Below are positions 8,201 through 49,996 of a stretch of 56,030 nucleotides of DNA, one piece after another. The notes under the pieces are model-generated. The model was not told the origin of the DNA, searched no databases, and saw only the letters and a list, made by a program, of their open reading frames with translations. Both the position numbers and the translations under genes were made by a program. The DNA comes from Desulfamplus sp. (lineage in GTDB: Bacteria > Desulfobacterota > Desulfobacteria > Desulfobacterales > Desulfobacteraceae): assembly GCA_015232555.1 (NCBI GenBank), contig JADFZJ010000026.1:1-56030 (forward strand), given 5' to 3'. Each line of letters begins with the position of its first letter. The first letter of the stretch is position 1.

Positions 8201-8868
8201 CAGCGAACACTCAGAAGATAGTAGCTGCTGCAAGGCGATTAAACACAGGTGTTGATAGAGTTCTGCTTGCTGCACTTGCATGGTGCTGCCACTGCCAGCA
8301 TGGTCATAGTTCAACATTGATCTCTCTTGAAAGCTATGGTCGTCCAGAACTTTTTGATAATATTGATGTATCAAGAACAATCGGCTGGTTTACAGCAACT
8401 TACCCCATGGTTATAAATGCCTCAAAAGATGATTTAAAAAAAGAAAATATTGAACAAGATATAATTGATATTGACAAAGAACTCAAACTGGTTTCAAACA
8501 ATGGAATCGGCTGGGGGCTTCTTAAATATTTGACATCTAAAAATATTGGAGTTGAATCTTTAGAAATTACTGATATTAAACAAGAGTCAAAGTTTAATTC
8601 AAATATGTTTGATCTAAATACAGATATTAATTTTAACTATTTAGGGGAATTTGAAGCATACAGTCGCGATATGTTCAAACCAGCCTCAGAAGATACTGGA
8701 TCTTCAGCAGCAGCCAAAGCACCAGTAATCCACGATTTAGATATAAATGGTGCGATTGCTCAAGGTCAGTTGCAAGTAATATGGAATTATAATAAAAAGA
8801 GATTTGCAAAAGAACGGATAAGCAAAATGGTTCAAGATTTTTCACTGTTGATTGATAAAATCGTGTAG
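2251..8868 (+). CDS. Nonribosomal peptide synthetase, C-PCP-C-A-PCP-E
   Basis: A 2205-residue NRPS. The first condensation domain spans about residues 8-450, with LTPLQEGILFHSL and active site HHIIMDGWS (H144, H145, D149). Its opening motif resembles the class that accepts D-residue or starter donors. A low-complexity Asn/Ser linker (about 470-515) leads to PCP1, with the phosphopantetheine serine at residue 560 (GGHSLRA). A second C domain has HHIICDGWS (H775, H776, D780). The adenylation domain spans about 1105-1625, with YTSGSTGEPKG, NAYGPTE and NGKIDKR. PCP2 serine is residue 1677 (GGDSIKA, the form often seen before E domains). The final domain (about 1740-2200) has HHLLGDAVSW and GWFTATYP, indicating epimerisation. 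There is no A domain in module 1 and no thioesterase. Hand alignment with GrsA gives pocket residues D-A-S-T-I-A-A-V-C-K, suggesting an aromatic residue, which would be epimerised to D. Confidence 0.93.
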   Translation: MFDKRNVKNLYALTPLQEGILFHSLMDASGSTYFEQACFNVNGQVNVSFFQKAWNELIRRHDALRTIFVMKNVPQPLQIVLKQRELTIRVEDITHLTPEEQDERIEAFRKEDRYTPFDLTKDLLIRINLFKRKDNLHTLVWSFHHIIMDGWSVSVLYEELAVIYTALLQDKKYHLPEPIQFNSYIKWMKGHNNKEAQEFWQHYLDGYSRRTTLPRLQKTSELYIDTETASPTLESPPVESTTTFSTKRLHFKINSNVSDGLIKLALSCQVTINTVFQALWGVVMASYNQCTDAVFGITVSGRPTEIKGIERMVGLFINAVPVRIKYSKEERFKNLLARLQSESTAARDFHYCSLADIQASTPLRHNLFDQLLVFENYPDPSDVLGESQMGLSLTGFDQFEQTNYDLTVEVFPGERIEYEILFNPDAFSEDVVKAIPIHIERAASAVLADENILVSSILILNDQEREFYNRYIIDTTKTLNINIENRELNSDNPLNSDNRNGADLVRKLSSDNSFENRRLTTKYVSPENEIQEKLAAIWEEVLERTNIGIDDNFFEIGGHSLRATRIVSRIHKVLSAEITLQEFFVKPDIRTIAKLIEVKLKPSLISKEDAQTLSSSDSADISKTKIYQNIPLCPPFEPDYEVSHAQRRLWILDKMEDNFTAYNQSAGFLFKGEFDPKLFKEAVEFAAVRHESLRTVFVEKEGVEKLNEPRQKIVDNQKILFSEIDLTLEAEPEKAAKEIASKLPHQMFDLANGPLWSATILKLGENKHVILLNIHHIICDGWSLVILENEVLTAYLTLLKGQKTNIKPLPLQYKDFAAWQNRRLHSSEMDRHRNYWHEKLKGEIPVLNLPTDFARPLVRTYSGAVVRTEISADQIEEFNRFCSKNRASLFTGLAALLKVLLFRYTSQEDIIIGSPVAGRDHADLEGQIGFFVNTLALRDQLKPDMSFEALLESVGTTVIEAFDHQLYPFDRLVEELNVLRDIGRSPIFDVMLVLQNNVGVTASIEGVSISEFDFELKQSQFDLTFIFSESDNGLTLDINYNTDLFHKETIERMAGHFTTLLTNAVKEPDAQISRLNMLTPNEYQILTRGFNTNTRLYPEDKTLASLFEELVLRNPERDAVIYQDKKLTYRELNKSADILAVYLAQTCGIKPDMPVAVLLNRSEQVPVALIGVLKSGGTYLPLDPESPFKRLEYIISDSGAKVLITDSSNMEVAEKLNPSKIINIQTSLWSELSDSLGQTDILIQNENLSQTDNFNKMESLSSIKNLTPSSPTDLAYIIYTSGSTGEPKGVMVEHRSFINMILAQIEGFDITPDDRVLQFATLMFDASMSEIFMALLSGAAVVMIDREQIQDTARFIDYMEQKKITAITLPPVYLKMLNRCPLPNLRILITAGEPAIKEDALFYSRTKSYFNAYGPTETAVCTSFQKVEPDASYGDTIPIGTPIANNAVFILDKHLNPVPIGVAGELCFAGVGVARGYLNRAHLTSEKFIPCPFNICHPFNKNGHIYRIGDLGRWLSNGNIEFLGRVDEQVKIRGFRIEPGEIASALKSFSEIDDALVVVWQDESERNNHLAAYIVTKSKLLPTELRRHLSEHLPPYMIPSVFIPLSAFPMTINGKIDKRALPDPAYAMKDHIKESSNKEAEEPATPLEATIVNVWQTIFNRTDIGRNDDFFNLGGDSIKAIRMISLLRETSVAVKVKDIFKWTTISELAKYGAKEIILTYPIAQFSGKVTQTPIYRWFFDHFKEYANHFNHADLFYSKKRLEPLSIEAGLNAVIAHHDMLRLTCKKSSDGIELIIPEQNHINSKDSKTFEVVDLKNLPIAEASNIISRIAGKAQESFDLFEPLKPLIKVVLFQLADSDRLFIVIHHLLGDAVSWRILLEDLESAYNQHDKSLIQLPQKTTPFPVWAEALEKYSRSEALQAEMDYWLTITKRKVGHLPADGILENNIIPQDTTTTRDIYTNQDTTVSQAKSTMADMNILEIKWESANTQKIVAAARRLNTGVDRVLLAALAWCCHCQHGHSSTLISLESYGRPELFDNIDVSRTIGWFTATYPMVINASKDDLKKENIEQDIIDIDKELKLVSNNGIGWGLLKYLTSKNIGVESLEITDIKQESKFNSNMFDLNTDINFNYLGEFEAYSRDMFKPASEDTGSSAAAKAPVIHDLDINGAIAQGQLQVIWNYNKKRFAKERISKMVQDFSLLIDKIV

Positions 8869-35439: not shown

Positions 35440-36291
35440 TTAAGAGTAATCATAAACCCCTTTGCCCGTCTTTCTCCCAAATTTTCCAGCTCTAACCAAT
35501 TTTTTCAAATATGGAGCAGGCATATACTTATCGCCCATCTCTTTGTGCATCCCTTCCATAACACGGAGCATAGTGTCAAGACCAACAAGATCAGCCAGTG
35601 CAAGAGGACCAATTGGGTGGTTGCAGCCAAGAACCATTCCTTTGTCAATATCCTCAGCAGAGGCAACGCCTTCTCCTAAAACATAGAACGCCTCGTTTAT
35701 CATTGGACATAAAATTCTGTTGACGGCAAATGCAGGTGCTTCATCAACAATAATAACTTCTTTGCCAAGATTTTTACCCCACTGTTTTGCAATCTCAAGA
35801 GTTTGGTCAGATGTCTGTTGTCCTTTAATTATCTCAAGAAGTTTCATCACTGGAACTGGATTGAAAAAGTGAGTGCCAATAAATTTTTCAGGGCGATCAG
35901 TTACAGCAGCAAGCTCAGTGATGCTTAATCCTGATGTGTTTGTAAAAAATAGGCAGTGAGCAGGCACAATTTTAGCAAGATCAGTATATACCTTCTTTTT
36001 AACTTCCATAACCTCAATTATAACTTCAACAACAGCATCAGCACCAGTAGCAGCCTCTTCTAAAGAGATTGTAGGCTTAATTCTTGATAAAATTGCGTCC
36101 ATTTCATCTTGAGCCATCTTCCCTTTTTTAACGCCTTTCTCAAGATTCTTTTTTATTGTTGACATTCCTCCATCAACAAAACGCTGTTCTATATCTCTTA
36201 AAGAGACTTCATATCCTGCCTGTGCACAGATTTGAGCAATACCATTGCCCATAAGTCCAGCACCCAATACACATACTTTTTTAATTTCCAT
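35440..36291 (-). CDS. 3-hydroxybutyryl-CoA dehydrogenase
   Basis: A 283-residue NAD-dependent 3-hydroxyacyl-CoA dehydrogenase, oxidising 3-hydroxyacyl-CoA to 3-ketoacyl-CoA (or the reverse) in the cytoplasm. The Rossmann dinucleotide motif is [20 protein letters not shown] (about 8-27). Catalytic region: [14 protein letters not shown], then [17 protein letters not shown] with the active His. The C-terminal domain has [31 protein letters not shown] and the final [12 protein letters not shown]. Length is exactly that of Hbd/PaaH. It is the last gene of the beta-oxidation run. Its final codons form one arm of a 10-bp inverted repeat (35405-35455). Confidence 0.95.
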
Positions 36292-36370: not shown

Positions 36371-38023
36371 TTAAAAAATATCTTTATAACTCTCTCTCAT
36401 ATTTCTTTTCAATATTTTCCCTGTAGGGGTTTTGGGAAGTTCATCAACAAATATGATCTTTTTGGGTATCTTGAACGAAGAGAGTTTTGCCTTGCAGTGG
36501 GTCATCATCTCCTCTTCAGTAACTGTTTTCCCTGCTTTAAGTTTTATAACTGCAGCCACCGCTTCTATCCATTTGGGATGGCTGATTCCTACAACTGCAA
36601 CCTCCTCAACATCAGGATGGAGATATACTGCCTCTTCCACTTCTCTTGAAGCAACATTTTCTCCACCAGTTTTAATCATATCTTTTTTGCGATCCACAAC
36701 AGTTATATAACGATCTTTATCAAGAACACCCAAATCACCTGAGTGAAACCAGCCGCCTTTCATGGCATTTTCGGTCTTATCAGGCTCTTTGAAATACATG
36801 GTCATAACGTGAGCACCTCTACCACATATCTCTCCTGGTATATCAACCTCTGTTACGGAGTTTCCATCATTATCCTCAATTCTTGACTCCATGTGCAGTC
36901 CAGCCATACCAGCAGCACCTATTTTGGACATTGCATCTTCTGCCTTCAATATGGTGTGATATGGAGCAAGCTCTGTCTGTCCATAGTAGTTATAGACTCC
37001 TGCTTTGGGGAATTTCTCAAGCAGCTCTCTTAAAATCTCACGAGGCATAATAGATGCACCATAGTAACATTTGCGAAGAGTTGAGAGATCGTATTTAGAA
37101 AAATCAGGATGTCGCAGCATTCCAATCCAGACAGTAGGAGGAGCAAAGAACATGGTTGCTTTGTATTTCTCGATATTTTGAAGAATAAGAGCTATGTTTG
37201 GTCCCATAAAAATGTTAGTGCCGCCCAACCAAAAGATAGGATTCATAAACACATCACGCTGGGCACAATGGTAAATTGGAAGTGCATTGATATTAACATC
37301 GCTGCTCTCATATTTTCCGTCAATAATGCAGCCCATATATTCAGCAATAAGAGATTGGTTGCTTATTATAACGCCTTTAGGAAGAGATTCTGTTCCGCTT
37401 GTGTAGGTCATCTGAACAGGGTCTTCAATTCTCAATACAATATCGGGTGCAGTTTTAGGATATTTTTTATACCAATTATCAAAATCAATAAATTTATCTT
37501 TATCTGGAGACGGCTTGTTTTCGCCCTGATTTGACCAAATAACAGTTTTGACAGATGGCATCTTCTCAAGAACACTTGCAACCTGTGGATAAAGAGAGTC
37601 TTCAATAATAAAGACTTTGCTTTCAGAGTGGTTGATGCAGTAGGCTATATCATCACCGCCGAGCAGATAATTGACTGCAAGATAGATTGCACCAGCTTTT
37701 GCACAGCCCATCCATGTGAGAACATGATGATGTGTGTTGTGTGCAAGAATGGCTACTCTGTCATATTTTTTAATTCCTAAATCAACAAGGGCATTTGCTA
37801 CTTGATTGCACTCATCTTCAAGTTCAGAATAGGTACGGACAATATCATTAAAGATAAGACCATTTTTATCTGGAAAGTGGTAAGCAGTTCTTCGGAGCAT
37901 ATCTGCGATAACCCATCGATTAATGGCATTATTTCGCTCCATTATAAAATCAATGTTCTCCTTGTTGATAACGCTGTATCTCTCTTTGTCCTGCTTAGAA
38001 AGCGGTAATGCTGAACTTGACAT
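36371..38023 (-). CDS. Acyl-CoA ligase (AMP-forming)
   Basis: A 550-residue ANL enzyme that would convert a free acid to acyl-CoA with ATP. Motifs: MTYTSGTESLPKGVIISN (P-loop; the usual TTG is TES, a mild oddity), YYGQTELAPYH, GWFHSGDLG, DRKKDMIKTGGENVASREVE and the catalytic C-terminal KTPTGKILKRNMRE. Closest in style to crotonobetaine/long-chain/benzoate-type CoA ligases; the substrate is not readable. A strong terminator-like hairpin lies just upstream (38076-38122), so it may depend on read-through from the thiolase or on its own promoter. Confidence 0.9.
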   Translation of the reverse strand: MSSSALPLSKQDKERYSVINKENIDFIMERNNAINRWVIADMLRRTAYHFPDKNGLIFNDIVRTYSELEDECNQVANALVDLGIKKYDRVAILAHNTHHHVLTWMGCAKAGAIYLAVNYLLGGDDIAYCINHSESKVFIIEDSLYPQVASVLEKMPSVKTVIWSNQGENKPSPDKDKFIDFDNWYKKYPKTAPDIVLRIEDPVQMTYTSGTESLPKGVIISNQSLIAEYMGCIIDGKYESSDVNINALPIYHCAQRDVFMNPIFWLGGTNIFMGPNIALILQNIEKYKATMFFAPPTVWIGMLRHPDFSKYDLSTLRKCYYGASIMPREILRELLEKFPKAGVYNYYGQTELAPYHTILKAEDAMSKIGAAGMAGLHMESRIEDNDGNSVTEVDIPGEICGRGAHVMTMYFKEPDKTENAMKGGWFHSGDLGVLDKDRYITVVDRKKDMIKTGGENVASREVEEAVYLHPDVEEVAVVGISHPKWIEAVAAVIKLKAGKTVTEEEMMTHCKAKLSSFKIPKKIIFVDELPKTPTGKILKRNMRESYKDIF

Positions 38024-38129: not shown

Positions 38130-39380
38130 CTACATCATCTCTATTGCACAAGCCATTGAAACTCCGCCACCGCCGCAGAGGGTTGCCATTCCTAAACTCT
38201 TTTTTCTCTGCTTCATGGCATGGATAAGTGTTACCATGACCCTGCAACCGGTTGAACCTACAGGGTGACCAAGACCGATACCTGAGCCATTGACGTTTGT
38301 AATCTCTCTGTTAAGTCCAAGCTCTCTTTCACAGCCGATATACTGTGCAGCAAACGCCTCATTCACCTCAATTAGTTCAAAATCGTTCAATGCGAGTGAG
38401 TTTCTCTCTAAAAGATTTTTAACAGCAGGCACAGGAGAGAGTCCCATGATGGTTGGATGACATGCACCAATTCCAGTTGCTTTTATTCTTGCAATCGGCT
38501 TGAGTCCAAGCTCTTTTGCCTTTTCTGCTGACATGATTATCATGGCTGAAGAGCCGTCATTGATTCCGCTTGAGTTGCCAGCAGTAACTTTTCCTGTTTT
38601 TGGAATAAAACCAGGTGGAAGTTTTGAAAGCTGCTCCATAGTTATTCCTGGTTTGAAATGTTCGTCTTTATCAAAAATAATAGGAGCTTTTTTCTTTTGT
38701 GGAATCTCAACTGGCACAATCTCCTCTTTAAATGAGCCGTCATTTGTCGCCCGTTCTGCATTGTTATGGCTTCTGAGTGCCACCTCGTCCATCTCTTCTC
38801 TTGATATTTCATGCTTTTGGGCAATAAATTCTGCTGTGTGTCCCATTATGTAAGGTTTACCAATAAAAAGGCTTGCTGGTGCTTCAGATGTATTTAAAGG
38901 TGCATCTTCGCCAAATGGAAGAAGGTGGGAACCACAGTGAAGAGCATGAATCATTGCATCGACAAACTGCTGATCTTGAAGGCGGCACCCCCATCTTGCA
39001 TTGGGTACTGTGTAGGGAACTCCTGACATGTGCTCTACACCACCGGCTAAAATAATATCAGCCATTCCAGCTTGAATCATTGCCATTCCTGAAATAGTAG
39101 CTTCCATACCAGAAATACAGACACGGTTTATAGTAACTGCTGGTACCGTATCTGGTATTCCAGCCATTAAAGCAGCTACTCGTGTAACGTTAAGGGTGTC
39201 ATGATGCTCTAAACAGCAGCCATATCTAACATCATCAATCATTGAAGGGTCAATTCCTGCTCTTTTTATTGCCTCCTTCATGGTTATGCTGGCAAGGTAT
39301 GCACCATTCAAATCTTTAAGAGTTCCACCAAACGAGCCAATAGCAGTTCTACAAGCTGAAACAATAACTACATCTTTCAT
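38130..39380 (-). CDS. Acetyl-CoA C-acyltransferase (thiolase)
   Basis: About 416 residues. The chosen start is the second ATG (MKDVVIVSACRT), placed 8 bases after GAGG; the ATG two codons earlier is only 2 bases from it. The enzyme cleaves 3-ketoacyl-CoA with CoA. The acyl-enzyme cysteine is C88 in NRVCISGMEA. The later motifs are NEAFAAQYIGCER, NGSGIGLGHPVGSTGCR (the His base) and CGGGGVSMACAIE (the second Cys). Full length and intact. It sits between acyl-CoA dehydrogenase and ligase in the same orientation. Confidence 0.94.
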   Translation of the reverse strand: MKDVVIVSACRTAIGSFGGTLKDLNGAYLASITMKEAIKRAGIDPSMIDDVRYGCCLEHHDTLNVTRVAALMAGIPDTVPAVTINRVCISGMEATISGMAMIQAGMADIILAGGVEHMSGVPYTVPNARWGCRLQDQQFVDAMIHALHCGSHLLPFGEDAPLNTSEAPASLFIGKPYIMGHTAEFIAQKHEISREEMDEVALRSHNNAERATNDGSFKEEIVPVEIPQKKKAPIIFDKDEHFKPGITMEQLSKLPPGFIPKTGKVTAGNSSGINDGSSAMIIMSAEKAKELGLKPIARIKATGIGACHPTIMGLSPVPAVKNLLERNSLALNDFELIEVNEAFAAQYIGCERELGLNREITNVNGSGIGLGHPVGSTGCRVMVTLIHAMKQRKKSLGMATLCGGGGVSMACAIEMM

Positions 39381-39470
39381 TATCATATCCTCAAAATTAA
39401 AGTTTTATATTATTTTATTAACTCAACTCTTCCCCTTCATTTTTCAAGGAAAGGGATAAAATAGCTAAAG

Positions 39471-41285
39471 TTATCTCGGACCAAAAGAGTCCTCTTCTAT
39501 ATCAATAACAGCAGTATCACATAACATAATAACATTCATCTTTCCAATAGAAACAGGCAAAACAGAGTTGATGTAAAACTGGGCACTTTTTAGCTGACCC
39601 TCATAGAACGCAGTATCTTTACTCTGTGGTTTGTTTTTAAGCTGTTCTGTTGCAATAACTGCTCTCCACAAGAGCATCCAAGCCATAATAGTGTCGCCTG
39701 TAACATCAAGAAACGGGTGAGCATTTGCAAAAGCCTTCAAAACTTCGCCAGCTCTCATTTTCTCTAATAAACTTTGCCCAACCTCTTTTAATTTGGAAAC
39801 ATTCAGTTCAAGCCTGTCTGCCAAATTTTTAAGAGTAGGCAGCTCTTTTGCACTATCAATTGTCTTTTGTACTTCATCTAATAAATTTGTAAAAGCCTGA
39901 CCCTTGTTAAGACCAAGTTTTCGACCTAAAAGGTCCATAGCCTGAATTCCATTTGTGCCTTCGTATATCTGTGTGATTTTGCAGTCTCTTAAAAGCTGCT
40001 CTTGAGGATACTCTTTTGTAAATCCATATCCGCCAAAAACTTGAACTCCAAGGCTGCACATCTCAAAAGCTCTGTCAGTAACATAACCTTTTGCAACTGG
40101 AATCAAAACATCAATAAGCCCTTGATATCTTGCCTTATCTTCTGGAGTTTTACTCAGCTTTACCATATCTTCCATAAAACCAGTGTAAAAAAGAATACTT
40201 CTCATCGCTTCGGAAGTTGATTTCATTGTGAGCAATATACGTCTGATATCAGGGTGGCGGATAATTGGAACACCTGTGGCATTTTTATCTGTCTCGGTTA
40301 GGCTTCTGCCCTGAACCCTGTCTCTTGCATAATTCAAAGCGTTTAGATATGAAGCAGATGCACATGCAAACCCCTGCATTCCAACATGAAGACGTGCTTC
40401 GTTCATCATTACAAACATGGCACTCATTCCTTTGTTCGCCTGCCCTAAAAGAGTTCCTCTGCACACACCTTTGCTGCCAAGAGCAATTGAACAGGTCGGG
40501 CTGCCGTGAATACCCATCTTCTCTTCAATTCCTGTACAGACAATATCATTGCGTTCCCCTAAAGAGCCATCATCATTTACCCAAATCTTAGGAACAAGAA
40601 ACAGTGATATCCCACCAGTACCAGCAGGAGCACCCTCTATTCTTGCAAGAACAGGATGGATAATGTTAGGCACAAGATCGGTCTCGCCGCTTGAGATAAA
40701 TATTTTGTTACCCGTTATCGAATATGTGCCGTCTCCGTTATCCACAGCTTTTGTGGTCAATGCTCCAACATCAGAACCAGCTTCAGGCTCTGTTAAAAGC
40801 ATTGAGCCTCCCCACTCGCCTGAATACATCTTTTTGAGAAAAAGGTTTTTCTGTTTGTCTGTACCAAATTTTTCAACAAGTTTTCCAGCACCATGAGCCA
40901 AAATGTTGTGGAGCATAAACGGGTAATTAGAGCCGTTAAAGTAGTTGTTTGCAGCCAAAGCCACAGTTGCAGGCATACCCTGTCCTCCCCATTTGGGGTC
41001 ATCACTCATGGCAATCCAGCCGCCCTCTCTAAACAGTTTGTATGCCTTGTGAAATGATTTTGGAACATTCACAACACCATTTTCAAACTTACAACCCTCC
41101 TCATCACCCTCTTTTAAAAGAGGAAAAAGCTCTTTAAGTGCAAGATTTCTTGCCTCAGAGACCACCATATCTATTGTCTTTTTATTAAAATCTGCAAACC
41201 CTTCGTATTTGCTTAAACTCTCAACTTTTAACTGCTCATGTATAACAAAATCCACGTCTCTTCTGTCTGCGACTACTTGTGCCAT
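39471..41285 (-). CDS. Acyl-CoA dehydrogenase, long form
   Basis: A 604-residue FAD enzyme introducing an alpha-beta double bond into acyl-CoA, passing electrons to ETF. It has the long-form layout: an N-terminal extension (about 1-75), a dehydrogenase core with LLTEPEAGSDVGAL (about 167) and NKIFISSGE, and the catalytic glutamate E442 in IYEGTNGIQAMDLLGRKL. The C-terminal extension of about 130 residues matches the 'acyl-CoA dehydrogenase C-terminal' family. It is the first gene of the operon, behind a sigma-54 promoter (41405-41418). ETF genes are not in the window. Confidence 0.94.
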   Translation of the reverse strand: MAQVVADRRDVDFVIHEQLKVESLSKYEGFADFNKKTIDMVVSEARNLALKELFPLLKEGDEEGCKFENGVVNVPKSFHKAYKLFREGGWIAMSDDPKWGGQGMPATVALAANNYFNGSNYPFMLHNILAHGAGKLVEKFGTDKQKNLFLKKMYSGEWGGSMLLTEPEAGSDVGALTTKAVDNGDGTYSITGNKIFISSGETDLVPNIIHPVLARIEGAPAGTGGISLFLVPKIWVNDDGSLGERNDIVCTGIEEKMGIHGSPTCSIALGSKGVCRGTLLGQANKGMSAMFVMMNEARLHVGMQGFACASASYLNALNYARDRVQGRSLTETDKNATGVPIIRHPDIRRILLTMKSTSEAMRSILFYTGFMEDMVKLSKTPEDKARYQGLIDVLIPVAKGYVTDRAFEMCSLGVQVFGGYGFTKEYPQEQLLRDCKITQIYEGTNGIQAMDLLGRKLGLNKGQAFTNLLDEVQKTIDSAKELPTLKNLADRLELNVSKLKEVGQSLLEKMRAGEVLKAFANAHPFLDVTGDTIMAWMLLWRAVIATEQLKNKPQSKDTAFYEGQLKSAQFYINSVLPVSIGKMNVIMLCDTAVIDIEEDSFGPR

Positions 41286-41404
41286 ATTATTATCCCCTTA
41301 CACCTAATTTAGTTTTGATAAAATATCTTGAAAAATTACGAATTATATCTAACCATTTAAAATATTTAAAACTTTAACTAATTTATAAAAACAAAATTAT
41401 AGAA

Positions 41405-41418
41405 GCAAAAAAAATGCC
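41405..41418 (-). promoter_or_regulatory. Sigma-54 (-24/-12) promoter for the acyl-CoA dehydrogenase operon
   Basis: On the minus strand the sequence reads ATGGCATTTTTTTTGCTTCT. GG and GC are separated by exactly 10 bases, and both boxes are close to consensus (TGGCA and TTGC). Expected transcription start is near 41393, about 108 bases before the ATG. An RpoN-dependent activator gene is divergent from it, which strongly supports the call. Confidence 0.82.
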
Positions 41419-41488
41419 ATACTAATAAAGATTATAAAAACAAATAGTTATAAATCTTTCTATATTTTTCTGTGCTATAGTGAAGAAA

Positions 41489-41539
41489 ATACTGTCCTAT
41501 AGTCCGGTTTATGTGTAAAACTGGACTATAGGACAGTAT
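41489..41539. promoter_or_regulatory. Large palindrome, candidate enhancer (UAS) for the divergent sigma-54 activator
   Basis: Left arm 41489-41510 and right arm 41518-41539 are 22 bases each with one mismatch, around the 7-base spacer ATGTGTA. The core is ACTGTCCTATAGTCC. Its centre lies about 120 bp upstream of the inferred start of the dehydrogenase operon and about 145 bp before the activator gene, the usual distance for an enhancer-binding-protein site. Being between divergent genes, it cannot be a simple terminator of either. Confidence 0.7.
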
Positions 41540-41540
41540 C

Positions 41541-41620
41541 AATAAAATAATTAGAATATTAACTTTGTTCATATTCAAAGAATAAAATAATAGAATATTG
41601 ACTTTGATAGTATCCAAATA
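41541..41620. repeat. Two tandem 40-bp repeats in the divergent control region
   Basis: Unit 1 is 41541-41580 and unit 2 is 41581-41620. Both begin AATAAAATAA and share (T)AGAATATT, ACTTTG and a TAT(T/C)CAAA end, with a single-base gap. Forty bases is close to four helical turns, so bound proteins would lie on the same face. The region may hold operator copies or the activator gene's own promoter (TTGACT in unit 2). Confidence 0.7.
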
Positions 41621-41657
41621 AAATAGAGTATCATAAAAAACATAAGGGCTAAAAATC

Positions 41658-43301
41658 ATGCTATTAGATGAAAAAGATTTCTTCAGAGAGGCAACTTTCA
41701 AAATATGCGGAAGCCTTGAGATTGAGAGGGCTTTGCATCAATGTCTTTTGTACATCCGCCAGTTTATCCCAGCAGATCAGATGGGTTTTCATGTATATCA
41801 TCGGGACGCTGGAGTTGTTGAAACTGTTGCGTATGCTACTCCTGAAGCTGGAAAAATCATGTCAGTAAAGATAAAACTGAGTCAACAGGCAATTATGCAG
41901 ATTGAAGCACAGCGTTCTGTCAGGATAAGGCTAATTGATAGGCTTGCAGATGATCCAGTTGCCTCGCCTGTTGCTCAAAGAATGAACGCATTAGAGCTGT
42001 CTGCTGTGGTTCTTGACCTTGTGCTTGATAGAACAATGCTTGGTGTCTTTTCAGTTTTTAATAATGGAAAAGAGAAATTTTCTCAAGAGCATGTCAATCT
42101 TTTAAAACTTCTGAGCAAACCTTGTGCAATTGCATTGACCAACAGCTTAAGGTACAGAGAACTTAAAAACCTTAAAGAGATGCTTGCTGATGACAATCGA
42201 TATCTACAAGAGGAGTTGAACAGAATTTCAGGTGAAAAGGTTATAGGTGCAGAAAATGGGTTAAAAGATGTAATGCGTATGGTTCATCAAGTTGCCCCGC
42301 TTGACAGCCCTGTTCTGCTGCTTGGAGAGACTGGAACAGGAAAAGAGGTCATTGCCAATGCAATTTACCATCTCTCTTTACGTAAAGATCGCCCATTTAT
42401 TAAGGTAAATTGCGGTGCTATTCCAGCCTCACTTATTGACAGCGAGCTTTTCGGATATGAAAAAGGTGCATTTACAGGGGCTGTTAATACAAAAAGAGGA
42501 CGAATTGAGCGTGCTCAAGGCGGAACTCTATTTTTAGATGAGATAGGAGAGCTTTCAAAAGATGCCCAGATTCGCCTTTTGCGTGTCCTTCAAACAAAGG
42601 AGATTGACAGAGTTGGGGGAAGAGAAACCATAAAGATAAATATAAGAGTTATTGCAGCAACTCACAGAAATCTTGAGGAGATGATGCACCAGAAAAAATT
42701 CAGGGCAGATCTCTTTTTCAGGCTCAGAGTCTTTCCAATCACAATTCCTCCATTACGAGAGAGGCAAGAGGATATCCCTGATCTTGTCCACCATTTTATC
42801 TTAAAAAAGTCGGGTGAAATGAAACGTGCTGTAATTCCTAAACCCTCTATTGAAGCAATGGAACGTCTTATGAGTTACCACTGGCCCGGTAATATCAGGG
42901 AGCTTGAAAATTTAGTTGAACGTTCACTTATACTTGAGCAGGGAGAGCATCTTTTTTTCAAGGAAATCGGCGGCGTTGGAGAAAATTTATCTATATTAGA
43001 GAGTCATGATTTTAAAGATAAAGATAATAAGCAACAAGCAAAAAATGATGAACAAGTCAGAAGTGATGAAAAGCAAATCTTTTTGCAATCGGAAAATCAA
43101 ATTGCTTCAGAGAAACAACTCGCTTCGCTTGATCGGGCAGTCTCAGATCATATCAACAAGGCACTTGAAATTTGCAATGGAAGAGTAGAGGGAGAAAAAG
43201 GGGCTGCTAAGTTACTTCATATCAACCCATCTACTTTAAGAAAAAGGATGAAAAAACTTGGAATTACGTCTGGACGAAAAAACAGACCAAAAAACAGTTG
43301 A
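41658..43301 (+). CDS. GAF-domain sigma-54-dependent transcriptional activator
   Basis: A 547-residue enhancer-binding protein. An N-terminal GAF-type sensor spans about 15-170 ([18 protein letters not shown]), followed by a helical linker. The AAA+ domain has Walker [13 protein letters not shown] (G223), the sigma-54 contact loop GAFTGA (270-275), Walker [10 protein letters not shown] and [12 protein letters not shown], with PGNIRELEN near its end. A charged linker (about 450-490) leads to a Fis-type helix-turn-helix, [20 protein letters not shown]. No receiver domain, so it likely senses a small ligand such as an acyl-CoA or acid. Divergent from the beta-oxidation operon and its -24/-12 promoter, which is its obvious target. 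Confidence 0.93.
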
Positions 43302-43451
43302 CTTTCAAGTTGTTTTTTATTGACAAGATTCCAGAACTCTTTTAAAGGTAAATCATACTAATAAGGTATGGATATACTTTATTATGCTCCCTCCTAATAA
43401 TTTAAGGTAGAAAAACCGTCAAATTTCATGATTCAACAAGAGGAAATAACC

Positions 43452-45143
43452 ATGTCTAAAAAAAGTTTATCTCTGAGGTTGATGTGTCTGTGCTGTACAA
43501 CCTTGCTTGTATTGCTGTTTATGGAGCAGACAACCATTTATGGCAGTAACACAGGGGAACTCAAACAAGGGAGGACAGATACTATTTTAATTAACCTCCC
43601 AGCTATTCCTGGTGGAGAGCAGATGCCCGGAGTAGAATTTTCACATGACCTCCACACTGAACAGGTGAAGGAGAACGATTGCAGTGTCTGTCACTTAAAG
43701 GATAATGAGAGATTTGTCTTTAAGTTCAAACGTCTTAAAGATACCACTACACAGACTGATATGGCAATTTACCATGATAACTGTGTTTCATGCCACGATG
43801 ATGCAAAAAAATCGGGGAAAAAAAGTGGTCCGCTAAAAGCTCAGTGCAGGGATTGCCATAGTACTAAGTCTTTTGCTGATTCAACATGGAGTCCAATTGA
43901 TTTTGATAAATCTCTTCACTACCGTCATGAAAAGGCAAAAAATATAGTTGGTATAAAAAAAGTACAAGAGCCAGTAGTTAGCGCAGAAAAAGAGCCAAAT
44001 TGTGGGGCTTGCCATCACAGTTATGACGAAAAAACAGAGAAGATATTTTACGAAAAAGGGAAAGAGGATTCATGTTTTTACTGCCACAAGGATGTTAAAA
44101 TTGGTAAAGCTGACTCCATGCGTAATGTATCTCATGATAGCTGTGTAAATTGCCACCTTGTTGAGATGAAGAACTTTGCAGGTCCAATAAACTGCAAGGG
44201 TTGCCACGATATTGAGCAACAGAAAAAAATTGAGAAACTTCAAGATGTGCCACGCTTGAAAAGAGATCAGCCAGATACAACAATAATGGCAGCTTGGAGT
44301 TTGCCAGTTGTACCACCAGCAGATTCTGCATCTATTTCTAATGGAGATTTTCTAAAGCCTGAAGAACTTATTAAGGTTGTAAAAACTCACATGAAGCCAG
44401 TTGTTTTTAACCATCAGGAACACGAGAAAGTCTCTAAAAACTGTAGAACCTGTCATCACGGGAGCTTGGATAGTTGTAAAAAGTGCCATACGGTAACTGG
44501 TAGTGACAAAGGGGCATTTGTTAAACTTGAGAAGGTAATGCACGATCCTAAAAGCGATAAGAGTTGTATTGGTTGCCATAATAACTATAAAAAACTTTCT
44601 GACTGTGCTGGTTGTCACTCTCAAATGCCAAGTAAATCATTTGCAGATAATGACAAGAACTGCTCTACATGCCATGAAGTTGATGCTGAGGCACTTAATC
44701 TGGTTTCAGCAGATGTAGCTGCTATTTCAAACATTGCAACTAAAATAGTTCAGGAACGCAATAGCGGCTTTAAGAAAGTTGCTGATGAGAAAATTCCTGA
44801 ACGGGTCAATATCGGCTATATTAGCGATAAATATGAGGCTTCAGACTTTCCACATAAAAAAATCATCACTTCAATTAACAAACGAATTGAGAAAAGCGGT
44901 ATGGCACAGGCATTCCATGGTGATGAAACAACTCTTTGCATGGGATGTCACCATAACAGTCCGGCTACCGAAACTCCTCAAAAATGTGGTGCATGTCATG
45001 GTAAAACAGAAGTTGTAAAAGGCGATGGCAGACCCGGACTTAAAGGAGCATATCATGGTCAATGTATTACTTGTCATCAAAATATGAAAATTGAGACAGT
45101 TGCGGCAACTGATTGCAACAAGTGCCATAAAGAAAAGAAATAA
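43452..45143 (+). CDS. hmcA: HmcA, 16-haem high-molecular-weight cytochrome c
   Basis: A 563-residue periplasmic cytochrome. The start is ATG 43452, preceded by GAGG; an upstream ATG at 43428 adds eight residues. Signal peptide about 1-31 (LMCLCCTTLLVLLFMEQ). I count 16 CxxCH motifs, from CSVCH near residue 75 to CNKCH six residues before the end, including the paired CRTCH/CKKCH and CIGCH/CAGCH. The number and length (D. vulgaris HmcA also has 16) identify HmcA. It accepts electrons from periplasmic hydrogenase or cytochrome c3 and hands them to the membrane part of the complex. First gene of hmcABCDEF. Confidence 0.93.
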   Translation: MSKKSLSLRLMCLCCTTLLVLLFMEQTTIYGSNTGELKQGRTDTILINLPAIPGGEQMPGVEFSHDLHTEQVKENDCSVCHLKDNERFVFKFKRLKDTTTQTDMAIYHDNCVSCHDDAKKSGKKSGPLKAQCRDCHSTKSFADSTWSPIDFDKSLHYRHEKAKNIVGIKKVQEPVVSAEKEPNCGACHHSYDEKTEKIFYEKGKEDSCFYCHKDVKIGKADSMRNVSHDSCVNCHLVEMKNFAGPINCKGCHDIEQQKKIEKLQDVPRLKRDQPDTTIMAAWSLPVVPPADSASISNGDFLKPEELIKVVKTHMKPVVFNHQEHEKVSKNCRTCHHGSLDSCKKCHTVTGSDKGAFVKLEKVMHDPKSDKSCIGCHNNYKKLSDCAGCHSQMPSKSFADNDKNCSTCHEVDAEALNLVSADVAAISNIATKIVQERNSGFKKVADEKIPERVNIGYISDKYEASDFPHKKIITSINKRIEKSGMAQAFHGDETTLCMGCHHNSPATETPQKCGACHGKTEVVKGDGRPGLKGAYHGQCITCHQNMKIETVAATDCNKCHKEKK

Positions 45144-45218
45144 AAATTTTATAAAATATACTCTGGCAAAGGTAAAAGGTAGTATAATTTATACTTGAGC
45201 AAAAAATAGAGGATTAAT

Positions 45219-46379
45219 ATGACAATTACCCGAAGGAAATTTTTGGGCTGGATAGGCGGAGCGGCAGCAGGTTCAGCAACTCTTGCCGGAACCGTTGCTC
45301 ATGGTGCCTCCAATAAGGAATTTAAAGGCTATCCCGGCAGTTTTGGTGTTCTGCATGATATAACAAAGTGTATTGGATGTCGCAAATGCGAACAGGCTTG
45401 TAGTGAAGTAAATGCTATGCCTGCTCCTAATAAGCCATTTGACGATTTGAGCGTATTGGAAAAGGAGAGACGGACAACGGTTACTACACATACAGTTGTC
45501 AATAAATTCGATAAAAGAGAGTTTGATAAATCAGCTACTTCTCAATCAGGAAATGCAGAAGATAGCGGTGATAAGTTAGGAGGCGATAAGCAAGTCATAA
45601 ACAGTTCAGGTAGTTTATTTGTAAAGAAACAGTGTAACCACTGCCTTGAACCTGCTTGTGCATCTGCTTGCTTTGTCAATGCCTTTAAAAAAGATAGAAC
45701 TGGTGCAGTAACATATAACGAATCTCTTTGTGTTGGATGTCGTTACTGCATGGTAGCTTGTCCTTTTAACATTCCAACTTATGAATATGATGAACCATTA
45801 ACACCAAGAGTTATGAAATGCACTTTATGTCTTCCACGTATTCAAGAAGGAAAACTTCCGGCGTGTGTAGAGATATGCCCAAAAGAAGCATTGGTCTTTG
45901 GAGAGAGGGAAGAGCTAATAAAACAGGCGAGAATGAGGATCCAAAAATATCCTGACAACTATGTTGATCATATTTATGGTGAACATGAGATGGGAGGAAC
46001 AAGCTGGCTTTATCTCTCTCCGGTCCCGTTCAACGAAGTTGGGATGAGAGAAGATTTAGGTAAGCATTCTGCTCCTGAACTTACTGCTGGAGCACTATCT
46101 GCTGTTCCTATTGTTGTGGGGCTTTGGCCAGTGCTTTTGACAGGTATCTACGCTATTTCAAAAAGAAAGGATAAAATTGCACAAGAGGAGCAAAAAGAGG
46201 CTGTTGCAAAGGTAAAGGAGGATGCTCAAGAGCAGATGGCATTGAAACTTGAGGAACTTAAGAAAAAAATGAACAAAGAGAGAGAGATTGCTATTAAAAC
46301 AGAGGTTAAAAAAGCATTGGATCAGGCTGCTAAGGCATCAGAAGCTAAAGCTACAAAACTATCAGAGGAGGAACAGTAG
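45219..46379 (+). CDS. hmcB: HmcB, periplasmic ferredoxin-like subunit
   Basis: A 386-residue iron-sulfur protein exported by the Tat path ([16 protein letters not shown] at residues 4-19). Four [4Fe-4S] Cys groups are visible: [36 protein letters not shown] and CTLC with CVEICP. A membrane helix follows (about 295-315, [19 protein letters not shown]). The last 60 residues are a charged coiled coil ([18 protein letters not shown]), longer than in standard HmcB. It would pass electrons between HmcA and HmcC. Its stop is directly followed by the hmcC ATG. Confidence 0.92.
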
Positions 46380-47612
46380 ATGACGCTGCAGACTATCTCT
46401 ATAAAAAGCAGATTGATAAATAATCCCCTGATAAAAAAGGTTGAGTGGACACCAGTAAATATTGTTACTGCCATTATACTGGTGATGGGTTTTTTTCTAA
46501 CAATTGCACGCTTTTTTGGTGGACTTGGTACTGTTACAAATCTTGATGACAATAATCCATGGGGAGTCTGGATTGGCTTTGATCTTCTTTGTGGTGTTGC
46601 TCTTGCAGCCGGTGGCTATGTAACCTCATCAGCATGTTATATATTTGGACTTAAACGATTCCACTCTGCCGTTAGACCCGCAATTCTCACAGCTTTTTTG
46701 GGTTACGCATTGGTTGCATTTGCCCTTAACTATGATGTAGGACGACCTTGGCGACTTCCATATCCAGTTTTCTACTCACCAGGAACATCATCTTTGCTAT
46801 TTGAAGTAGGTCTATGCGTTTTTCTCTACCTTAACGTTCTATTTATCGAATTTACACCCGCAGCGTTTGAATGGCTTGGCTTAAAAAAAATCCGCAGTTT
46901 TGTTGTTGGTCTAACAATGATTCTTACCATTTTTGGTGTCGTGTTATCCACACTGCACCAATCTTCACTTGGTGCTCTTTTCCTGATTGCTCCATCTAAA
47001 CTTCATCCCCTTTGGTATTCAGGTTATCTTCCAGTCTATTTTTTCATTTCAAGTATGTTTGCAGGTATGTCAATGGTAATTTTTGAGGGAAGTCTTGCAC
47101 ACAAATATCTTCATCATAAGATGGATGATACCCACTTGAGTGAAAGTGACGGCGTTGTTTTAGGATTTTCCAAAGCTGCCTCATTTGTGATGATGGGATA
47201 TCTTGGTATTAAGCTGATAGGTCTTGCTATTGACAATAATTGGCACCACCTCTTTACAGGGTGGGGATTATGGTTTTTGTTTGAACTTATAGGTTTTGTC
47301 GCTATTCCCGCATTTATGTATGCAGTTGCTGCTCGTGATAAAAATGTAAAATTTGCTCGTATTGCCTCTGTTTTTGCCGTTCTTGGTATTATATTGAACC
47401 GACTAAATATCTCTCTTATAGCTTTTAACTGGCATTTACCTTCATCTCAACGTTATTTTCCAAGCTGGATGGAGATTGCTACTTCAGTGTTTATTGTGAC
47501 TTTGGGTATTGTAGTGTACAGGTTTATTACAGCTTATATGCCAATACTTTACGAACATTCTGACTATAAACATGATAATTCAAATCAAAATGCTAACTCC
47601 CATGACGATTAG
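46380..47612 (+). CDS. hmcC: HmcC, NrfD/PsrC-type membrane subunit
   Basis: A 410-residue integral membrane protein with about ten helices, of the NrfD/PsrC family that binds quinone next to a ferredoxin-type partner. Family phrases: NPWGVWIGFDLLCGVALAAGGYV (about 61-83), NYDVGRPWRLPYPVFYSPGTSSLLFEV, and STLHQSSLGALFLIAPSKLHPLWYS. The arrangement in the operon, directly after the ferredoxin subunit, is that of HmcC. The ATG begins the base after the hmcB stop, with GAGGAA as ribosome site within hmcB. Confidence 0.93.
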   Translation: MTLQTISIKSRLINNPLIKKVEWTPVNIVTAIILVMGFFLTIARFFGGLGTVTNLDDNNPWGVWIGFDLLCGVALAAGGYVTSSACYIFGLKRFHSAVRPAILTAFLGYALVAFALNYDVGRPWRLPYPVFYSPGTSSLLFEVGLCVFLYLNVLFIEFTPAAFEWLGLKKIRSFVVGLTMILTIFGVVLSTLHQSSLGALFLIAPSKLHPLWYSGYLPVYFFISSMFAGMSMVIFEGSLAHKYLHHKMDDTHLSESDGVVLGFSKAASFVMMGYLGIKLIGLAIDNNWHHLFTGWGLWFLFELIGFVAIPAFMYAVAARDKNVKFARIASVFAVLGIILNRLNISLIAFNWHLPSSQRYFPSWMEIATSVFIVTLGIVVYRFITAYMPILYEHSDYKHDNSNQNANSHDD

Positions 47613-47692
47613 CTTGAAAGACACTATTAGGCATTCTGTGTGTGTGTACTTAATTATTAAAATGAAAAAATATATTTAGGAGATAGCTATTC

Positions 47693-47836
47693 ATGGAACA
47701 CATTTTTTATACTCTTCAAGATTTTATGGTACATACCAAAGGTATTACCTATCTGATTATGGGTGGGCTTTTGATAGCTTTGCCTCTTTTCTGGCTTTTT
47801 CTAACCGGAAGGGATGAGAAGAACAAAACATTCTGA
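47693..47836 (+). CDS. hmcD: HmcD, small single-helix membrane subunit
   Basis: A 47-residue peptide (MEHIFYTLQDFMVHTKGI...) with one membrane helix, YLIMGGLLIALPLFWLFLTG (about 20-39), and a charged tail. TTTAGGAGAT precedes the ATG. Its size, single helix and position between hmcC and hmcE match HmcD of Desulfovibrio. It is easily missed by gene finders because of its length. It overlaps the false upstream extension of the next gene. Confidence 0.87.
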   Translation: MEHIFYTLQDFMVHTKGITYLIMGGLLIALPLFWLFLTGRDEKNKTF

Positions 47837-47855
47837 ACAAAAGGAGATATTATTA

Positions 47856-48533
47856 ATGTATGAATTTATAACAGGCTTCATGTTCTGGTTGGCTCTTGGT
47901 GTTTGCCTTACAGGAATGATTGTCCGCACAATTTTGTATTTCAGAGGGCTTCAGTGGAATCTTGATCGTGTGGCTTATAAAGCCTATCCAGTTGAAGGCT
48001 TTAAAGGTGCTATACGCTCAATATACAAATGGATTATGCCTTTTGGAACTCATGGCTGGAGAAAACAGCCATTTATGACCGTTATTTTCTTCTCGTTTCA
48101 TATAGGAGCTGTTTGTGTGCCGCTTTTTCTTCTTGCTCACAATCTTTTTCTTAAAGAGAAATTGGGTTTTAGTTTTGTTTCAATCAATGGTGGTGTAGCT
48201 GATTTTTTAACTTGGCTTGTTGTTATAAGCACTATTTTTATCATATTGAGAAGATTGGCACTTCCTGAGGTAAGAATTCTTACAAATTGGTATGACTATC
48301 TTATAATTTTTATTTCAATAACTCCTTTTATTACAGGGCTTATGGCAAGATATGAGGTTGGAAGCTATTCGTTTTGGCTACTGGCTCATATTATCAGTGG
48401 TGAAATTTTACTTTTCGCCATTCCATTTACAAAGCTATCGCATGTATTTCTCTTTTTCGCCTCTCGTGCCCAATTGGGTATGGATTATGGAATTAAACGT
48501 GGTGGTCTAAAAGGTACGGTGATGGATTGGTAA
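47856..48533 (+). CDS. hmcE: HmcE, b-type cytochrome membrane subunit
   Basis: A 225-residue NarI-like membrane protein with five or six helices. The start is ATG 47856 (MYEFITGFMFWLALG), preceded by AAAGGAGAT. A longer in-frame start at 47814 overlaps hmcD and lacks support. Histidines in FFSFHIGAVCVPLFLLAHN and in WLLAHIISG and KLSHVFLFF are candidate haem b ligands. It would pass electrons with HmcF at the cytoplasmic face. Position and type match HmcE. Confidence 0.88.
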   Translation: MYEFITGFMFWLALGVCLTGMIVRTILYFRGLQWNLDRVAYKAYPVEGFKGAIRSIYKWIMPFGTHGWRKQPFMTVIFFSFHIGAVCVPLFLLAHNLFLKEKLGFSFVSINGGVADFLTWLVVISTIFIILRRLALPEVRILTNWYDYLIIFISITPFITGLMARYEVGSYSFWLLAHIISGEILLFAIPFTKLSHVFLFFASRAQLGMDYGIKRGGLKGTVMDW

Positions 48534-48563
48534 TAAGAGTTGATTAATATCTGTGACTTTTTA

Positions 48564-48590
48564 GGGAAACCCATTGTGGTTGCCCTTTTT
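48564..48590 (+). terminator. Terminator-like hairpin ahead of hmcF (possible attenuator)
   Basis: GGGAAACC (48564-48571) pairs with GGTTGCCC (48578-48585) with one mismatch and a 6-base loop, followed directly by TTTTT and then the AAGGAG ribosome site of hmcF. It is positioned to lower hmcF expression relative to hmcA-E, since hmcF lies in the same orientation 74 bp after hmcE. Confidence 0.5.
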
Positions 48591-48607
48591 AAGGAGAATT
48601 TAAACCC

Positions 48608-49996
48608 ATGCCAGAAGGTATATTTTGCAATAAAAAACCCATTGAAACTCAAGAGGAGTTGACGGCACTTCTTGGAGATACGAGTGGGGCACAGTATTAT
48701 AAAGAGATGAAAGAGCTTGATGTTGATACTAAGCTCTTATGGACAACTATTCAGAATACCTGTAAATCCCGAATCCGGACATGGCTTGAGATATGTGCAC
48801 ATTGTGGCATGTGTGCAGACAGCTGTTTTCTCTATTTAGTAAATGACAGGGACCCTAAACAGGTGCCAGCGTATAAAATTCAGTCAACACTTGGTGAAAT
48901 TGTCAAGAGGAAAGGTAACGTTGATAACCAATTTATGCTTATGGCAATGGAGACAGCATGGGCAAAATGCACCTGCTGCAACAGATGCGGAATGTACTGT
49001 CCACACGGTATAGATATGGGAATTATGTTTGGATATCTCAGAGGACTTCTCTATCAGCAAGGATTTGTACCATGGGAGCTGAAAATCGGTGCTGGTATGC
49101 ACCGGGTCTTTCGTGCTCAGATGGATGTCTCTGAAGAGGAGTTTGTAGAGACTTTCCAGTGGATGGTGGAAGAGAATGAAGATGAGTATCCAGGGCTTAC
49201 AGTGCCAGTTGATGTTGAAAATGCCGACATAATGTACACTGTAAATGCAAGAGAGGTAAAACACTATCCTGAAGATTTGGCAGAAGCTGCTATTTTATTT
49301 CATGCTGCCGGTGAAAATTGGACTATTCCAAGTCAGGGGTGGGAACAGACAAGCCTTGCAATGTTTGCAGGAGATTGGGCAGCCTGTAAAATGCAGGTAG
49401 AAAATGTCTATGCAGCTATGGAGAGACTAAAGCCTAAACGTATGGTTGGAACAGAGTGTGGTCACGCCCATCGTGCAACAGTAGTAGAAGGTCCATACTG
49501 GGCAGGAAGAAAAGATGGAAAACCTCCGGTTGAGTCTATTCACTATATAGAGTGGTTGGCAGAGGCGTTAAGAGAGGGGAAACTTAAAATTGATCCGGAA
49601 AGAAGAATCAAGGTTCCCGTAACTCTTCAAGATTCCTGTAATTATGTTAGAAACCACGGATTGAGAGATGTTGCACGGGAGATTTTGAGCTATATTGTAG
49701 AACCTGGTTATTACCGTGAAATGTCTCCTAATCGAGAGCATAATTTTTGTTGCGGTGGTGGAGGTGGATTTAATGGTATTGGGCTTTTTAGACCACAGAG
49801 AAACAAAGGGCTTATAACCAAACGAGATCAGATACTTGCAACTGGTGCAGAGCTTGTGATTGCCCCATGCCACAATTGCTGGGATGCTATTCGTGATTTA
49901 GAAGAAGAGTTTGAAATCGGCATTAAATGGTCATTCTTAAAGCCACTTGTGGTCAGTATGCTTGAACTACCTGACCACATGAAACCGGAAGAGTAA
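48608..49996 (+). CDS. hmcF: HmcF, HdrD-like cytoplasmic iron-sulfur subunit
   Basis: A 462-residue protein with two ferredoxin-type [4Fe-4S] motifs near the N-terminus, [11 protein letters not shown] (about 64) and [12 protein letters not shown] (about 121). A HdrD-type C-terminal half carries two CCG-like Cys-rich regions (one includes [14 protein letters not shown] and CHNCW; the other EC-GHAHR). These bind a non-cubane [4Fe-4S] cluster for disulfide chemistry in Hdr and DsrK. It should sit on the inner face of the membrane and take electrons from HmcE, linking periplasmic cytochrome c to cytoplasmic reduction. Ribosome site AAGGAG. Followed by the UspA gene. Confidence 0.93.

Follow-up and report, generated by a model that had tools for sequence, protein, structure and literature searches.

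Bacteria of the host's group are anaerobes known mainly for sulfate reduction. Two described types of sigma-54 activator are relevant to the locus analysed here: NorR, whose GAF domain holds an iron centre that senses nitric oxide, and NifA, whose systems use IHF and upstream sites together with sigma-54 promoters. As summarised in PMC2941729 (citing Tucker et al. 2010), the three enhancer sites of NorR act as a scaffold for a higher-order oligomer, which is most likely hexameric. In the sigma-54 regulome of Desulfovibrio vulgaris, as presented in PMC4641369, activators lie beside their own sigma-54 target, regulons are small and half-sites are of the TGT/ACA type; the terms acyl-CoA, beta-oxidation and fatty acid are absent from the main text of that paper. 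A 2025 survey states that sigma-54 is enriched at lipid-metabolism genes, including those of beta-oxidation, predominantly in Clostridia and Bacilli (PMC12316311). A search of titles and abstract starts in the open-licence literature returned no description of the regulator reported here or of its sites.

We analysed a stretch of 56,030 nucleotides from Desulfamplus sp., hereafter the window. Based on its sequence and on that of related genomes, we propose, with a probability of roughly 0.88, that one intergenic region controls a beta-oxidation operon: a GAF-type activator would bind three sites as three dimers, an IHF/HU-type protein would bend the DNA, and a hexamer would open a sigma-54 promoter in response to a signal.

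The proposed control region and its genes

The region spans 372 bp, is 78% AT, and separates an acyl-CoA dehydrogenase gene on the minus strand from an activator gene on the plus strand (Table 1). The initial annotation had described a GG-N10-GC promoter directed toward the beta-oxidation genes, a GAF-type sigma-54 activator pointing the other way, a palindrome with 22-bp arms and one mismatch, and two 40-bp direct repeats. The promoter was confirmed on the minus strand upstream of the acyl-CoA dehydrogenase gene. It is a good promoter of the -24/-12 type facing the gene start at 41285, from which we would expect transcription to begin at approximately 41394. The activator was likewise as described: beyond the domain matches listed in Table 1, its AAA+ domain matched PF00158 at E 3.7e-69, its translation contains KGAFTGA, and its C-terminal Fis-type HTH matched PF02954 at 22.7 bits (cut-off 22). 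The genome of the window also carries rpoN.

Table 1. Features of the control region and of the flanking genes in the window.
Feature	Position	Strand	Basis or remark
Sigma-54 promoter TGGCATTTTTTTTGCTT	41403-41419	minus	-24 GG 41418-41417, -12 GC 41406-41405
IHF-like element AAACAAATAGTTA	41438-41450	plus	8/9 specified letters of WATCARNNNNTTR
Activator site S1 CTGTGCTATAGTGAAG (predicted)	41470-41485	plus	footprint comparison
Activator site S2 CTGTCCTATAGTCCGG (predicted), left palindrome arm	41492-41507	plus	footprint comparison
Activator site S3 CTGGACTATAGGACAG (predicted), right palindrome arm	41521-41536	plus	footprint comparison
Palindrome	41489-41539		S2 plus S3
Sigma-54 activator, 547 aa: GAF, AAA+ (GAFTGA), Fis-type HTH	41658-43301	plus	GAF_2, Sigma54_activat, HTH_8
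Acyl-CoA dehydrogenase, first gene behind the sigma-54 promoter	39471-41285	minus	domain match
Thiolase (acetyl-CoA C-acyltransferase)	38130-39386	minus	TIGR01930, above cut-off
Fatty acyl-CoA synthetase	36371-38023	minus	NF006182, above cut-off
3-Hydroxyacyl-CoA dehydrogenase type (3HCDH domains)	35440-36291	minus	NF004474, 401.4 bits, just under cut-off 408

Two other gene sets in the window were recorded. Downstream of the activator, at 43428-49996, lie genes of the Hmc sulfate-respiration complex, with HmcA, B, C, E and F above NCBIfam cut-offs. A link between them and the activator was considered and dropped: Hmc genes follow the activator on the same strand in the window genome alone of 52 loci, for which the stretches seen were often about 6 kb and some contigs shorter. 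At 2251-8868, an open reading frame of 2205 aa has a translation that reads like a non-ribosomal peptide synthetase.

The palindrome stood as described. Its arms (41489-41510 and 41518-41539) are 22 nt each, 95% complementary and separated by a 7-nt loop, and its score was reached by none of 200 dinucleotide shuffles of the 372-bp region. A search of the 3.8-Mb assembly with a 15-nt arm core, allowing up to two mismatches, returned both arms and a single place with two mismatches on another contig. Since the core is thus confined to the two arms apart from that one place, the palindrome is not a mobile repeat; the initial annotation had raised a repeat found all over the genome, and the search gave just one palindrome copy. 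Beyond its unusual length, nothing speaks for the palindrome being a repeat that is mobile or due to chance, and the single copy, the shuffles and its conserved position in relatives reduce this reading to a negligible probability.

The direct repeats fared less well. They are present at 41545-41582 and 41584-41621, are 76% identical and have a spacing of 39. Equally strong repeats arose in three of 200 shuffles of the 78% AT region, and in the corresponding stretch the best direct repeat has a score of 12 in one relative (G001) and 7 in another (G008) as against 20 in the window; the shift in G001 is likewise 39 bp, its score being given without a shuffle comparison. The repeats are real but weak, and a role for them as a regulatory part is not supported.

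The sites within the palindrome emerged from comparison with relatives. The activator was searched in 58 related genomes and the upstream regions of its closest relatives were compared. Thirteen of the 15 closest (L004-L018) were aligned; L016 is cut by a contig end and L017 has a run of N just upstream. Three 16-bp imperfect dyads occur in 12 of the 13, the exception being L018, whose activator is the most distant of those aligned (54% identical) and which has no three-site array. In rough consensus, S1 reads CTGTnCYATGGnAAAG, S2 CTGTnCTATTTTCCAG and S3 CTGGnnnATAGnACAG, S3 approximating S2 reversed. S2 and S3 resemble each other, are asymmetric and point in opposite directions, which gives rise to the palindrome; S1 is a third, weaker copy that was overlooked in the earlier reading. 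In a scan with free spacing (18-26 and 25-34 bp allowed), the 12 arrays gave 21-22 and 28-30 bp.

From this layout, we propose the following sequence of events. Three dimers of the divergently encoded enhancer-binding protein would occupy the adjacent 16-bp sites S1, S2 and S3, where they would seed or hold an AAA+ hexamer, as in NorR. An IHF/HU-type protein would bend the 50 bp that separate the promoter from the array, and looping would bring the hexamer to sigma-54 RNA polymerase at the -24/-12 promoter. The promoter would be opened once the GAF domain senses its signal, which is probably acyl-CoA or a fatty acid. The promoter, the sites, their spacing, conservation and linkage, and rpoN can be read from the sequence, whereas we infer the binding of dimers and of IHF, the hexamer, the looping and the activation. 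Pairing within sites amounts to 66.3% of cells overall (S1, 78%; S2, 51%, the least; S3, 70%) versus 84% between S2 and S3. Because the sites are imperfect dyads whose internal pairing is below that of S2 with S3, one dimer per site stays a proposal.

Recurrence and neighbours of the array

A sequence-only model of the array, built from the 12 aligned arrays and with the spacing built in, was run on the 58 genomes. It gave 13 arrays with E no higher than 2.5e-12; no genome had more than one, the window genome included, and every array adjoined an activator. The next-ranked matches were the same palindromes on the opposite strand (from E 6e-8) and weak ones elsewhere (E 0.001-0.05). One weak match, that in G011 (E 0.0065), is full-length; a 45% identical activator follows 96 bp after it. 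In G040, the genome of L017 and thus outside the model, the array scored E 1.7e-16; it is located past the run of N, approximately 500 bp away from the gene. The best activator is at least 60% identical in 14 genomes (L004-L017); the sole one lacking an array is G031, in which a contig end cuts the activator.

Across the order, 52 arrays were found in 50 of 389 genomes at E <= 1e-4, with 12 candidates scored per genome; 12 of these arrays had built the model and 40 had not. A phylum sample of 395 genomes gave three arrays, all within the window's own order. These counts are not independent, because the genomes are related to one another and include near-duplicates (G343/G362, G261/G333). The spacing is narrow: S1 and S2 are 22 bp apart in 47 arrays and 21 bp in five, and S2 and S3 are 28 bp apart in 43, 29 bp in seven, and 27 and 30 bp in one each. 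At 49 of the 52 arrays, the divergent gene is faced by a sigma-54 promoter that matches the consensus in at least eight of 12 letters, and none of that quality was found at the arrays of G088, G158a and G375.

An activator homologue (54-100% identical) starts within 600 bp of 47 of the 52 arrays. Moreover, the search of relatives proposed in the initial annotation located the arrays before beta-oxidation-type genes: such a gene is divergent, within 6 kb and read away from the array in 50 of 52 cases, scored as a tblastn match at E <= 1e-8 to the acyl-CoA dehydrogenase, thiolase, 3-hydroxyacyl-CoA dehydrogenase or acyl-CoA synthetase of the window, without a baseline of random places. Some of these matches are 23-30% identical, which indicates enzyme class rather than orthology. 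No divergent beta-oxidation-type gene was found at the arrays of G029 and G375; the weak G375 array is missing S1, a recognisable promoter and the beta-oxidation neighbour alike. The joint recurrence of sigma-54 promoter, divergent activator and sites strongly supports the enhancer reading first put forward for the palindrome, and the activator very probably turns on genes of fatty-acid breakdown. In seven genomes, the first gene behind the array encodes a protein of approximately 92 aa with a MEWLEIIKVR-like start (G040, L156; G044, L150; G107, L197; G158a, L195; G088, L200; G199a, L193; G214, L198); the G044 copy had no Pfam match.

Five arrays lack an adjacent activator. The G379 array lies at a contig end, and another contig carries an activator. 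In G149 and G109, the activator is elsewhere in the genome (70% and 72% identical), and for G199b it is found at that genome's other array (66%). In G107, whose genome is 81% complete, no activator was found at E <= 1e-100. The first gene behind the array in G149, G109 and G199b is acyl-CoA synthetase-like. Because these arrays stand apart from the activator, they suggest a small regulon that would be controlled in trans. Finally, G158 has two arrays and two activators (64% and 56%). The second pair resembles that of seven genomes (G183, G253, G261, G309, G333, G336 and G352), whose activators are 54-57% identical and which have a different acyl-CoA dehydrogenase (28-30%); the second G158 activator and this group probably represent a sister regulator that uses the same kind of array.

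The initial annotation had attributed the long arms to two dimers or to structured DNA. Several sites are indeed present, but there are three, and structure is disfavoured. In a structural reading, the palindrome would act as a DNA cruciform or as a hairpin in the leader RNA of the activator. The best evidence for such a role is that S2 and S3 mirror each other and covary: their cells pair at 83.9% across 12 sequences, compared to 31-49% when slid. Among 500 shuffles, 14 reached this pairing, one reached the count of pairs in which both sides had changed and six reached the covariation score. S2 is also closer to the reversed S3 of its own genome (11.3/16) than to those of other genomes (10.4), and the S2-S3 palindrome match is 16/16 in three arrays. 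However, sites that all follow a single protein in related genomes would be expected to covary as well, and the near-perfect palindrome is not conserved, with at least 14 of 16 positions matching in just eight of the 52 arrays. S1, which lies outside the hairpin, is kept at a fixed spacing and was altered along with S2 and S3 in G029, and the region contains no terminator-like site. We thus consider a structural role highly improbable and retain sites read by the activator.

Promoter-array geometry and the G029 variant

In 49 regions, the gap from promoter to S1 is 49-52 bp in 31, 60-64 bp in 13, 72 or 74 bp in two, 42 bp in two and 96 bp in one. These few classes bear on the reading in which the sites only autoregulate, by repression, the activator gene and another promoter drives the beta-oxidation operon. 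The array does sit between both genes, and the region holds seven sigma-70-like hexamers versus 3.3 expected (sd 1.5). Nevertheless, the distance that falls into few classes is that to the sigma-54 promoter, whereas S3 lies anywhere between 14 and 435 bp from the estimated start of the activator. Moreover, arrays that are separate from the activator precede acyl-CoA synthetase-like genes. Autoregulation alone is accordingly very unlikely, and autoregulation in addition to control of the operon is quite possible.

The gap in the window contains an IHF-like element, scored against WATCARNNNNTTR, which we take to be the IHF consensus. In 35 of the 49 control regions, the best match in the promoter-array gap is found at a distance of 17-19 bp from the -24 T; in the other 14, no match occurs at that place. 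The mean match is 11.41 of 13 letters, four of which are N, and exceeds all of 300 randomisations (mean 10.62, sd 0.09, largest 10.90); on the opposite strand, the match does not exceed them. The window genome has three himA-type matches, every one under the curated cut-off. Where the gap is at least 60 bp, nine of 16 regions hold the element 18-20 bp from the promoter, which places the added turn between the element and the array. Two other long-gap genomes (G366 and G372) have it 27-28 bp from the promoter, and five (G018, G026, G033, G367 and G381) have no IHF-like match in that place.

When the regions are grouped into 24 genus-level classes, the eight classes with a gap other than about 50 bp fall near whole steps of about 11 bp. 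Against uniform distances, P was 0.001 for a period of 11 or 11.5 bp and 0.02 for 10.5 bp, with periods picked after the data had been seen and a crude null. The 60-64 bp class may be shared by descent among genera of the window's family, so the independent events are few.

G029 differs in the sites themselves. Across S1, S2 and S3, every one of the six outer site letters has gone from C/G to T/A, and the G029 activator (L154) is the sole one among 46 readable recognition helices with Trp at the position of Ser525. The divergent gene in this genome starts like an FMN oxidoreductase. This change is one event and not a statistic; two further genomes of the same genus yielded no array. A second pairing of residue and base, Arg530Lys with G-to-A at site position 3, was discarded, as G040 and G292 carry Lys without the change, as judged by eye.

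Tentatively, and at somewhat less than even odds, these observations can be read together as a rigid nucleoprotein machine that changes its geometry in evolution by full turns of the helix. The promoter, the IHF-like bend and the three sites would keep their helix faces, with insertions and deletions surviving only as steps of approximately 10-12 bp, and G029 would be a natural specificity switch in which Ser525 became Trp, the six outer letters changed and a new target gene was acquired. Given the natural spacing series and the coupled change in G029, both helical phasing and activator specificity can be tested directly on natural variants.

Comparison with described sigma-54 systems

In every feature compared, namely the GAFTGA-bearing AAA+ domain, the Fis-type HTH, the -24/-12 promoter and rpoN, the activator fits the sigma-54 enhancer-binding proteins (bEBPs). 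It scored under the curated cut-offs of NifA, NorR and the others among the 25 models listed of 29, and is therefore not assigned to any of these. The best NCBIfam match among those listed was to NifA (TIGR01817; 373.9 bits, below the cut-off of 528.85); the neighbours scanned here, however, are not nif genes. NorR of Escherichia coli, with its norVW operon, shares the GAF-AAA+-HTH architecture, the divergent target and three enhancer sites, which are present here as a sequence pattern. By contrast, the activator scored 324.8 bits against the NorR model NF003451 (cut-off 476), and the target of NorR is the nitric oxide reductase operon rather than beta-oxidation-type genes. The sequence of the array sites also differs from what we take to be the NorR consensus.

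The locus resembles the D. vulgaris regulome, as presented in PMC4641369, in that the activator adjoins its own sigma-54 target, the regulon would be small and the half-sites are of the TGT/ACA type. It differs in their arrangement: three motif groups with half-sites 9, 11 or 12 bp apart are given for D. vulgaris (PMC4641369), whereas the sites here are at best TGT-N8-ACA.

Twelve distant GAF activators were also compared. Four of these (L020, L021, L023 and L028) have three TG-N10-CA-like dyads at similar spacing with other site sequences, and a fifth (L019) has three dyads of which, by eye, the third is closer, at about 19 bp; several others show no clear triplet. Of the 361 spacings tried on these 12, 23/29 came first, followed by 22/28 and then 23/28. 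The layout may therefore be common in the group, and the upstream regions of the four could form a series for reading the recognition code.

The analysis gives a sigma-54 activator of fatty-acid oxidation a likely binding motif, a set of targets and a full control layout. Among the described systems, the activator would work most like NorR; since the layout of its control region recurs in dozens of related bacteria, we regard this region as a well-supported and well-preserved case of a type of switch already known and not of a new one.
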